A DNA stretch of 64,000 nucleotides from Bacteroidales bacterium (GTDB taxonomy: Bacteria; Bacteroidota; Bacteroidia; Bacteroidales; P3). The notes below the pieces were generated by a model that worked only from the letters and a program-made list of their open reading frames with translations, was not told the DNA's origin and did not search any database. The position numbers and the translations under genes were made by a program. Positions within the stretch are counted from its first letter, which is position 1. Each line of letters starts with the position of its first letter. Positions 12,101-51,012 of the stretch are shown piece by piece. The stretch is taken from positions 62,001-126,000 of the forward strand of contig JAGBJI010000008.1 in NCBI GenBank assembly GCA_017934545.1, in the 5' to 3' direction.

Positions 12101-12262
12101 TGCCGCTACACAATGCTACACTTTGTAACACTTATTTTCTATTAAAGATTTTTTATCAAATAGATTTATATAGAAAAAGTGAAGCGAAATGTAGCAAATT
12201 TGATAATTGTTTGATAACTAATTATTTGCTGAAAAAAGAAATGTAGCGGTTGTGTAGCGGCA
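12101..12262 (+). repeat. Core-and-arm element, copy 1 (degenerate arms)
   Basis: Lies in the 927-bp gap between 11978 and 12904, which has no convincing gene. The shared core (TTATTTTCTATTAAAGAT onward, from 12132) is well kept. The arms (left 12102-12133, right 12178-12196) carry GCTACA/TGTAGC words but pair imperfectly. A direct pair of TGTAGCGG words follows at 12242-12260, 11 bp apart. It is the most decayed of four copies (others at 43181, 46683 and 50855). Confidence 0.7.
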
Positions 12263-43060: not shown

Positions 43061-43180
43061 TTTCGCTTTTTGGATATCAATAACCGATGACCCGTTTTTA
43101 GTGTTTTTGCAATTGATTTTCAATAAGTGTGACGGCAAATTACTAAAACGACTGATTTAAAATATGTTAACAAAATGCCG

Positions 43181-43335
43181 GCACACATGACACACATTGG
43201 CACACTTATTTTCTATTAAAGATTTTTTATCAAAATAGATTTATATAAAAATAGTGTGCCAATGTGTGTCACTTTTGTAAAACATTAATTTACAATATAT
43301 TCCGAAAAACAGATGTGTGTCAGAAGTGTGTCAGC
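43181..43335 (+). repeat. Core-and-arm element, copy 2 (GTGTGYC word)
   Basis: In the 652-bp gap 42993-43644. Perfect 18-bp inverted arms (43189-43206 and 43253-43270) flank the shared AT-rich core. The arms are made of GACACA/GGCACA words. A direct pair GTGTGTCAG at 43315 and 43326 follows 42 bp after the right arm. The whole word set differs from copies 3 and 4 but agrees within this copy. Confidence 0.85.
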
Positions 43336-43393: not shown

Positions 43394-43455
43394 TTTTCAG
43401 AAAACAAAAAATCCTTTTCAGAAAAGAAAAAATTGTTTTCTGAAAAGGATTTTTT
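43394..43455. repeat. Phased palindrome array of 3 units with a 20-bp inverted repeat
   Basis: TTTTCWGAAAA units begin at 43394, 43415 and 43436 (21-bp step). The last two form a perfect 20-bp inverted repeat (43406-43425 with 43436-43455) followed by AAAACG. It stands about 60 bp after element copy 2. Confidence 0.75.
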
Positions 43456-46593: not shown

Positions 46594-46832
46594 ATACCAA
46601 AAAATCTTTACCGAAACTTCGTCCGAACGGCACGTTTATTACCCTGTTTCTGTAAAGTATTGATAATAAACGTTTAATATTAGCCGCTACACATCGCTAC
46701 ACTTATTTTCTATTAAAGATTTTTCATCAAAAAAAGTTTATATAAAAAAAGTGTAGCGATGTGTAGCGGCTTTATAATTGTTTGATAACTAATTATTTAA
46801 TAAAAATAGAAGTGTAGCGGATGTGTAGCGGC
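46594..46832 (+). repeat. Core-and-arm element, copy 3 (GTGTAGCG word), with left flank shared with copy 4
   Basis: A 34-bp flank at 46594-46627 (ATACCAAAAAATCTTTACCG onward) is identical to 50774-50807. The element proper has perfect 22-bp inverted arms (46683-46704 and 46749-46770) around the shared core. The direct pair GTGTAGCGG stands at 46811 and 46822, 40 bp after the right arm. The word GTGTAGCG occurs six times, counting both strands. It lies in the 765-bp gap 46483-47247. Confidence 0.88.
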
Positions 46833-46867
46833 AAAAAACTGATAAAAAAACAAATTCTGCAAAAATA

Positions 46868-47070
46868 GATTCAGAAAACAAAAAATCCTTTTCAGAAAAG
46901 AAAAAATTGTTTTCTGAAAAAAGATTTTTTAATTCAGAAAAGAAATTTTTTGGGACGGTTCAAAACTATATTTCAGACCGTCTAAAACTAACTTTTAAAC
47001 CGTCTAAAACTTCCTTTCAGACGGTCTGAAAAAATTTATTTTCTCAAAAGAAAAATTTTAATTCAGAAAA
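46868..47070. repeat. Longest phased palindrome array, 10 units
   Basis: Centres at 46873, 46894, 46915, 46936 (TTCAGAA/TTTTCTGAAAA type), about 46957, 46979, 47001, 47023 (GACGGT/AGACCGTCT type), then 47044 (TTTTCTCAAAA) and 47065 (TTCAGAA). The step is 21-22 bp across three different palindrome sequences, so the spacing is kept while the sequence changes. It ends about 140 bp before the higBA -7 box. Confidence 0.8.
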
Positions 47071-47247: not shown

Positions 47248-47574
47248 ATGATAACAATAATATTCAAAGATACGGACTTAAAGGAACTATACGAAACAGG
47301 CATTAATAAAAAGTATAAAAAATATTCAAAAGATGCATTGTTTTTGAAACGCTTGAGATTGGTTATCAATACTATTAAGGCACAGAACTGTACTGACGGA
47401 TTGTATAATATCAGTTTTCTACACTATGAACAACTGAAAGAAAATTTAAGCGGCTATTATTCTGTACGGATATTTAACAACAGAGTTGAGAGATTGATTT
47501 TTACGCAAAACGACAATAAAATAGAAATAACATTATTAGAATTGGACAATACGCATTATGGAAACAAGAAATAA
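47248..47574 (+). CDS. higB: HigB/RelE-family toxin
   Basis: 108 residues with the RelE-fold pattern of HigB: an N-terminal strand (ITIIFKDTDLKELYE), a lysine-rich helix with FLKRLRLVINTI, a loop with L-KENLSGYYSVRI, and the strand RLIFTQNDNKIEITLLELDNTHY-like end (about 82-104). HigB toxins cut mRNA on the ribosome. It is the first gene of the pair and overlaps the antitoxin gene by 17 bp, the toxin-first order typical of HigBA. Confidence 0.85.
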   Translation: MITIIFKDTDLKELYETGINKKYKKYSKDALFLKRLRLVINTIKAQNCTDGLYNISFLHYEQLKENLSGYYSVRIFNNRVERLIFTQNDNKIEITLLELDNTHYGNKK

Positions 47575-47977
47575 TTACGTTGTGGGATTGCAAGCAACAC
47601 ATCCGGGTGAGTTATTGGAGGCTGAACTTGAAGAAAGAGGCATAAAACAAAAGGATTTTGCCGCACAGATAGGTTTAACGCCTGCAAATCTGTCGTCGTT
47701 TATTCACGGACGGAGAAATTTGTCGGTATCTTTAGCGGAGAAGTTGGAAAAGGTTTTGAATATAGATGCAAAGGTGTGGTTAAATATGCAATCTAATTAC
47801 AACTATGACACAAAGATAATAGCACGGCGTGAAAAGAAGACTGCAAAAGGGAAAGATATAGCGTTGCAACCGTCTTATGCGGAAGAACTTTTGAATGTGT
47901 TAAACCGTTTATCAGACCAAATCGGAGTGTTGATAGCACAAAATCAAAACAATTCCCGCCCTACATATGTTCATTAA
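47558..47977 (+). CDS. higA: HigA-family antitoxin (XRE helix-turn-helix)
   Basis: 139 residues. ATHPGELLEAELEERGIKQK starts the HigA-type domain, followed by the helix-turn-helix AAQIGLTPANLSSFIHGRR and AEKLEKVLNIDAKVWLNMQ. It should neutralise HigB and repress the shared promoter. The C-terminal 40 residues form a likely helix ending in a polar tail. It follows the toxin with a 17-bp overlap. Confidence 0.88.
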   Translation: METRNNYVVGLQATHPGELLEAELEERGIKQKDFAAQIGLTPANLSSFIHGRRNLSVSLAEKLEKVLNIDAKVWLNMQSNYNYDTKIIARREKKTAKGKDIALQPSYAEELLNVLNRLSDQIGVLIAQNQNNSRPTYVH

Positions 47978-48069
47978 AGAAAAAGTGTCTTTACTTTCAA
48001 AAATCATTTGTTTATAAACGCAAGTAATCGTTGAAAAACTGATAAAAAATACAAATTCTGCAAAAATAG

Positions 48070-48121
48070 ATTCAGAAAACAAAAAATCCTTTTCAGAAAA
48101 GAAAAAATTGTTTTCTGAAAA
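48070..48121. repeat. Phased palindrome array of 3 units, truncated copy of the flank repeat
   Basis: Units centred at 48074, 48095 and 48116. The stretch 48031-48121 matches the segments after element copies 3 and 4 (46834-46920 and 51012-51100) almost base for base, but no core-and-arm element precedes it. It lies in the 300-bp gap 47978-48277; the rest is AT-rich without a gene. Confidence 0.72.
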
Positions 48122-48150
48122 GAGTACTAAAATTTTAAACAACATTAAAA

Positions 48151-50773: not shown

Positions 50774-51012
50774 ATACCAAAAAATCTTTACCGAAACTTC
50801 GTCCGAAAAATATGTTTATCATCCTGTTTTTGTAAATCGTTGATAATTAGAATGTGATACACATGATACACATTGATACACTTATTTTCTATAAAAGATT
50901 TTTCATCAAAATAACTTTATATAAAAAATGTGTATCAATGTGTATCACCTTTGTAAAATATTGATAAATAATTGTTTGTGAAAAACAGATGTGTATCAGA
51001 AGTGTATCATTG
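50774..51012 (+). repeat. Core-and-arm element, copy 4 (GTGTATCA word), with left flank shared with copy 3
   Basis: Left flank 50774-50807 is identical to 46594-46627. Perfect 18-bp inverted arms at 50864-50881 and 50930-50947 surround the shared core. The left arm has a third word upstream (from 50855). The direct pair GTGTATCA is at 50991 and 51002. The word occurs seven times on both strands. It lies in the 516-bp gap 50699-51214. Confidence 0.88.

Follow-up and report, generated by a model that had tools for sequence, protein, structure and literature searches.

Organization of the element and its copies

The window analyzed here is a stretch of 64,000 nucleotides (C10:62001-126000) from a genome of 2,376,997 bases in 14 contigs. 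The element under study is the third of four copies in this window, all of which lie on the plus strand. It begins with two inverted words CGCTACAC (GTGTAGCG on the other strand) spaced 10 bp apart (46685..46702), followed by an AT-rich core with 90% A+T that is a putative origin melting region (46703..46750) and by two words GTGTAGCG, again 10 bp apart, that mirror the left arm (46751..46768). A spacer (46769..46811) leads to a direct pair of GTGTAGCG words spaced 11 bp apart (46812..46830). Beyond this pair lies a tail with a TTTTCAGAAAAG hairpin (46831..46926) that is common to other copies, and the hairpin block is also present elsewhere in the genome.

The remaining copies in the window are built similarly. 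Copy 4 carries three inverted words TGATACAC (equivalent to GTGTATCA; 50855..50881), an AT-rich core (50882..50929), two words GTGTATCA (50930..50947), and a direct pair of GTGTATCA words 11 bp apart (50991..51009). Copy 2 consists of three inverted words of the GTGTGCCA/GTGTGTCA class (43179..43205), an AT-rich core (43206..43253), the right words GTGTGCCA and GTGTGTCA (43254..43271), and a direct pair of GTGTGTCA words 11 bp apart (43315..43333). The words of copy 1 are less regular, with three partly decayed inverted words of the AGC class (12104..12131), an AT-rich core shorter by one base (12132..12178), decayed right words GTGAAGCG and ATGTAGCA (12179..12196), and a direct pair composed of ATGTAGCG and GTGTAGCG (12241..12259).

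On re-reading the sequence, we found the four copies where a preliminary description had placed them (12101, 43181, 46683, and 50855), and its word counts were also accurate, with GTGTAGCG present six times at 46683, GTGTATCA seven times at 50855, and a mixture of GTGTGTCA and GTGTGCCA at 43181. The arms of copies 2 to 4 indeed pair perfectly, over 18 bp, and those of copy 1 pair poorly. The reported word spacing of 10 bp within an arm and 11 bp within the direct pair holds for the right arm and the direct pair, but the first and second left words are 9 bp apart at 43179 and 50855. The cores of the four copies contain 87-92% A+T, compared with 60% for the window as a whole. A core pattern allowing up to three mismatches matched four times in the window versus a mean of 0.00 times in 100 shuffled sequences.

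The tally of four copies applies to the window but not to the genome, where a model search located 13 copies. This search yielded 27 matches: the 13 copies, 13 minus-strand shadows of them, and one match on C12 that was judged on reading to have arisen by chance. Nine copies reside on C10, three on C1, and one on C14, and these three contigs make up about 35% of the genome. In an alignment of all 13 copies the same layout is kept throughout (inverted and mirrored words on either side of an AT-rich core of 47-48 bp, then a spacer of ~43 bp and the direct pair), with the words decayed in copy L002. Conservation is highest in the core (mean pairwise identity 0.898) and lowest in the spacer (0.701). 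When C10 was scanned generically for word pairs that face each other, six clusters emerged, all of them known copies, versus none in five shuffled sequences; by that scan, therefore, C10 carries no further family of this kind.

A VapE helicase gene adjoins one copy

According to the preliminary description, no replication gene sits beside any copy. This statement is correct within the window but fails for the genome, and the gene was missed because of the window edge. The copy at C10:131037 (L006), 5 kb to the right of the window, directly follows a VapE helicase gene, with its first word 15 bp past the VapE stop codon. The gene comprises 412 codons, and its product matches PF05272 (VapE-like domain) at 5.9e-71 and a PHROG DNA helicase at 4.4e-111. 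There was one significant solved relative, PDB 7pds_A (‘Similar to D. nodosus vapE’, E 8.7e-46), which we take to be a SaPI initiator, and the matches to PF05272 and 7pds_A characterize the product as a self-loading Rep/VapE helicase. No other gene in the genome exceeds the PF05272 cut-off of 25 bits, the second match, on C9, scoring 15.7 bits. Relatives of this VapE protein, all with less than 60% identity, were found in 1026 phage and 130 plasmid records, and no relative was confirmed among viral contigs.

Upstream of vapE, a gene of 319 codons shows a match to the N-terminal portion of a phage helicase family, and downstream are genes for a HicA toxin and an HU-HIG protein. A scan of surrounding genes (formiminotransferase, pantoate ligase, a Phage_holin_4_2-type membrane protein, HicA, HU-HIG, LRR, and oxidoreductase) revealed no integrase, master repressor, packaging, or interference gene.

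Thus one of the 13 copies is positioned immediately 3′ of an initiator gene, and no vapE remnant was found at the other 12, which we call solo copies. A tblastn search of C10 and of the DNA around the C1 and C14 copies with VapE, its partner, and HU-HIG returned nothing beyond genes already known, another HU-HIG gene (C10:4.7 kb), and chance matches, and thus no vapE remnant, although a strongly diverged remnant could escape such a search.

Repeated words recur 3′ of VapE genes in relatives

A search with PF05272 gave 39 places in 190 genomes of the same family and 58 in 393 genomes of the order, corresponding to 96 distinct places. We examined 81 of these. Five of the 81 genes have no stop codon inside the contig, and the remaining 76, among them the VapE gene described above, were scored once three duplicate entries had been removed. 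For each gene, a 500-base segment reaching from position -40 to +460 relative to the stop codon was scanned for 7-mers that recur on both strands over a span of 280 bp, and words were accepted at p<=0.05 against 100 dinucleotide shuffles.

A significant two-strand repeated 7-mer is present just 3′ of the VapE stop in 36 of the 76 genes, and none is significant in the other 40. By comparison, the same scan was positive in 0 of 76 cases inside the gene and in 3 of 40 at 900-1400 bp downstream (L086, L134, and L220), where the match at L086 is itself an element of the same kind. Reading of the loci, which for 12 of the 36 positives went beyond word positions, revealed that the top word at L129, L130, and L135 (all among the 36) is a hairpin or tandem repeat, with L130 carrying an iteron set based on a different word. 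Judged from positions, the top word of L101 also looks like a hairpin or tandem repeat.

The first word follows the VapE stop at a median distance of 15.5 bp in the 36 positive genes. Where neighboring words on the same strand are separated by 16 bp or less, the spacing is 7-11 bp in 68 of 69 cases (overlaps of less than 7 were removed beforehand), and the gap between opposed words is richer in A+T than the gene in 23 of 30 cases. The words vary between VapE loci even within one genome (three in G203), and some related VapE genes share a word. Moreover, word similarity tracks VapE similarity (Mantel r 0.33, 0/2000).

In several pairs of loci with a changed word, the C-terminal part of VapE has diverged more than the helicase part (70% vs 92% identity for L121/L122). 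However, the C-terminal part has also diverged more in L183/L192, where the word is unchanged (57% vs 80%), and the pattern is reversed in L131/L101. We therefore regard these comparisons as weak evidence that does not locate the specificity of the protein.

The copies resemble origins of SaPIs and PICIs

Gram-positive PICIs have their origin directly 3′ of the gene for the initiator, where two sets of short iterons flank an AT-rich stretch, as described in excerpts of PMC6092414. Excerpts of PMC7581432 describe iterons as being read by the C-terminal domain of the initiator, and excerpts of PMC9894130 describe opposed repeats as loading two hexamers head to head. All 13 copies have opposed iteron sets around an AT-rich region, which is the arrangement of the SaPI/PICI rep-ori, and they share with it the opposed repeats and, in the case of L006, the position 3′ of an initiator helicase gene (PMC6092414, PMC9894130; same excerpts). 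They differ in that 12 of the 13 have no initiator gene, in that a further direct pair is located downstream, and in that no integrase or interference genes were seen beside the vapE locus. The host, which judging from its gene content probably belongs to the Bacteroidota, also falls outside the groups named in those excerpts.

Other known systems are less similar. The putative origin of SCCmec Cch2 likewise has direct repeats 3′ of a self-loading helicase that are bound by the C-terminal domain of that helicase, but the excerpts of PMC7581432 mention only three iterons, a helicase that contains another domain family, and no solo copies.

Repeated initiator-binding words, with possible titration, are also characteristic of iteron plasmid origins and of titration sites such as datA. 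Unlike these, the elements described here are chromosomal and dispersed, and their word differs between copies. Iteron words are known to differ between SaPI/PICI islands.

We consider it likely that the copies are cognate origins of VapE replicons of the SaPI/PICI type, most of them solo, with VapE as the predicted binding protein. Among the options of the preliminary description, a copy-specific, iteron-like recognition protein is the one supported by the layout, by the VapE gene beside one copy, and by the VapE survey, and its assignment to VapE is predicted from these features. Each copy would constitute a replication origin in which opposed iterons flank an AT-rich melting region, with the direct pair downstream, and a cognate self-loading helicase of the VapE type would recognize the iteron word. 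Firing at these sites is proposed by analogy with the PICI mechanism.

This kind of origin is already known; the new part is the families of solo copies that have multiplied and switched words, and our literature search found no report of such solo VapE origins. The results would extend the SaPI/PICI-type origin to the VapE loci of a further bacterial order, and they provide matched initiators and words from which the DNA recognition of such helicases could be learned.

Words change as sets within a copy

Slots read from the 13-copy alignment fall into three word classes, namely GTGTATCA (L001, L005, and L013), GTGTRGCR (L002, L004, L011, and L012), and GTGTGYCA (L003 and L006-L010). Because the genome holds one vapE gene for these three classes, two of them have no cognate initiator in the assembly. 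The preliminary description held that each copy is built from one word. Over the six slots compared, this is true of L001, L004, L005, and L008, which are fully uniform, but L003, L006, L007, and L009-L012 mix two words of one class. The words of L013 deviate in their first letters only, and decay affects L002 and one word of L012.

The claimed coupling between the arms and the direct pair was upheld, with a mean identity of 0.904 versus 0.771 when words are shuffled (0/5000 as high), a procedure that leaves the relatedness of the copies in place. Omission of the near-duplicates L005 and L009 gave almost the same values (0.903 vs 0.766, 0/5000). Such coupling would be expected of VapE origins, since a change of word must reach all iterons of one copy together. 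Within class III, the coupling of arms to the direct pair is weak (232/5000 shuffles as high), and the coupling of hairpin partners is no better than chance (2155/5000). The coupled unit therefore appears to be the class rather than the base pair.

These data also bear on whether the element is a structured RNA, as had been proposed in the preliminary description. Arms that form a covarying hairpin would agree with the finding that 97.0% of cells are paired, 24 of them changed on both sides (0/500 shuffles as high), but the same word is carried by the direct pair, which is not one of the hairpin partners, and partners within class III are coupled at chance. We therefore disfavor this explanation. 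In addition, neither L007 nor L009 has matching arms, no Rfam match reached the gathering score in the window, and the VapE linkage explains the layout, such that an RNA structure seems extremely improbable.

Another explanation is that gene conversion between words or copies alone makes the words uniform, without selection by a protein. Copy L004 looks like a mosaic of the kind that this process would leave, judging from sequence comparisons. It resembles L005 in the core (47/50), tail (91/96), and upstream region (70/87), and its words differ from those of L005 in the same two letters in each of six words. Its spacer is nonetheless closer to that of L002 (34/41) than to that of L005 (29/41), which makes recombination between copies likely. 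Concerted repair, which the preliminary description had listed among the possible causes, may thus contribute. However, it predicts neither that such layouts, with other words, lie 3′ of VapE genes in many genomes nor that words are retained despite a diverged core in L001 and L013 (words 94-100% identical, core 83%, spacer 74%), and we judge conversion alone to be a very unlikely cause.

Solo copies have been duplicated without vapE

The 12 solo copies, which would be origins lacking a detected initiator gene, are all intergenic. Neighbors with a Pfam family include GcvP, NusB-type, DAHP synthase, DnaJ, YceG, and NA37 genes, and most such neighbors are ordinary metabolic or cellular genes. 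No constant placement of the element relative to genes was seen among the copies compared.

Three pairs of solo copies have non-VapE flanking DNA in common: L001/L005 (368 bp, 97.3%), L007/L009 (349 bp, 85.4%), and L003/L010 (C10:105 kb and C14:10.6 kb; 512 bp, 85.5%). The left ends of common blocks are situated about 102, 117, 141, and 272 bp before the core. These shared flanks imply that duplication continued in the gene-less state, with variable left ends. The solo copies therefore most likely spread as rep-less elements, which would have occurred by replication in trans or by carriage within duplicated DNA. In the genome G013, the genes around the counterpart of the L012 site are ~200 bp apart, compared with ~650 bp here, and the model finds no copy there. 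From this comparison the G013 site may be empty or may have lost its copy, the relatives being too diverged for exact ends to be placed.

Dispersed copies would also result from a MITE or another transposon whose ends are fixed, and such an element could have given rise to the recent duplication of L001/L005 at 97.3%. The differing left ends of the common blocks, one of which takes in the 3′ end of an aminotransferase gene, led us to reject fixed transposon ends, and no transposase was seen among the neighbors scanned; a transposon of this type is accordingly a highly unlikely source. As a separate observation, it was the L003/L010 block that brought this aminotransferase gene end to a second locus.

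The orientation of the copies was also considered in relation to the replication terminus. On C10, six plus-strand copies are followed by three minus-strand copies, with the flip between 152 and 210 kb and the peak of cumulative GC skew near 240 kb. Orientation fits the local skew in 10 of the 13 copies, which is not convincing, and a role at the terminus was rejected.

A second genus and the present role of solo copies

We searched eight genomes of the genus g10 with the origin adjoining vapE in G203 (word GTGAGGGAG). Four of the eight gave seven rows, comprising the query itself, a shadow-type match in G205, a match (L226) rejected as chance on reading, and four homologues. One homologue (G201 C33; word GTAGGAG) is accompanied by vapE. 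At the second (L224, G205 C62; word GTGAGGGAG), the C-terminal 108 codons of vapE are left, with 82% identity (E 9e-52). The third (L229, G203 C23; word GTAGGAG) retains about 26 C-terminal vapE codons (E 0.010), and the fourth (L227, G203 C24; word GTTAGAG) has a 13-codon vapE trace that is not significant alone (E 0.91) and that we read as real because it has the same end point ahead of the origin. The PF05272 search of family genomes listed no other VapE match at G205 C62, G203 C23, or G203 C24. The cores of the homologues align and their words change as sets, so that g10 reproduces the result independently and hints at how solo copies may arise. At L124, L126, and L130 in this genus, tandem TAACTCCTTATTCTA repeats with an inverted half at the end were also observed after the origin 3′ of VapE.

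These remnants are relevant to the present role of the solo copies. They could be dead relics, the remains of VapE modules after gene loss that have no function now and whose word uniformity is inherited. This explanation assigns the copies the same identity and another present role, and we find it quite plausible, if somewhat short of an even chance. The truncation of vapE looks graded in g10, and the decayed words of L002 are those expected of a relic, but no vapE trace accompanies the solo copies in G000, and their common non-VapE flanks indicate duplication after loss. The strong conservation of the core relative to the spacer also argues against relics, as does the retention of words in L001/L013, where divergence before insertion is nevertheless possible.

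Alternatively, the solo copies could be selfish VapE origins without a rep gene that multiply via an initiator borrowed in trans and re-tune all iterons together while the core stays fixed. We offer this proposal tentatively, as it may well prove incorrect. If true, the element would be a satellite of a satellite, cut down to about 150 bp of binding sites. Gene-less origins appear in any event to have multiplied in at least one chromosome, and, if they fire in trans, this chromosome would have a dozen extra origins under mobile-element control, with consequences for the stability of the genome, for gene duplication, and for satellite-host conflict.

A third role would be that of decoys useful to the host, in which solo copies protect the cell by titrating out the initiator of satellites or phages that enter it. 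Such protection would favor several word classes, and three are indeed found in one genome, with an Abi_2 gene and toxin-antitoxin genes beside some copies. The position of the copies relative to genes is not constant, however, and their neighbors with a Pfam family are mostly ordinary genes, so we think decoys improbable.

The core that defines these putative VapE origins is nearly private to this genome. Among 189 other family genomes, L061 and L062 alone look similar in kind, and the model matches L060, L063, and L064 were dismissed as chance on reading. L061 (G022; word TGTCCCA) has no VapE among five neighboring genes scanned and, by its sequence, looks like another solo copy. In 60 relatives, the core pattern gave 12 matches outside this genome versus eight control matches, and L014, the one of the 12 that was inspected, was taken as chance. 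The pattern matched once in GTDB, in Neobacillus, and a plasmid collection gave an element match of 33 bases at most.

Additional repeats near the copies

A TTTTCAGAAAAG...TTTTCTGAAAAG hairpin block is found 3′ of copies on C10, C1, and C14, with examples in the window at 43436, 48111, and 51090. It lies within ~320 bp in 11 of the 13 copies and farther away in L002 (679 bp) and L013 (1547 bp), and an Abi_2 (abortive infection) gene (L033:6574-7449) is located between the solo origin L013 and its hairpin block. The block is present at many further genomic sites as well and is possibly a terminator or a REP-like repeat.

The tail of copy 3 (46827-46922) recurs ~1.2 kb downstream at 48027-48122, preceded by genes for a RelE/HigB-like toxin and an HTH protein (47248-47977), and this recurrence shows 98% identity with the copy 4 tail over 99 bp. 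Positions 46918-47061 of the window hold a different dispersed repeat, which contains GACGGTCTGAAA palindromes and has many matches in G004 and G009, two genomes of the same genus.
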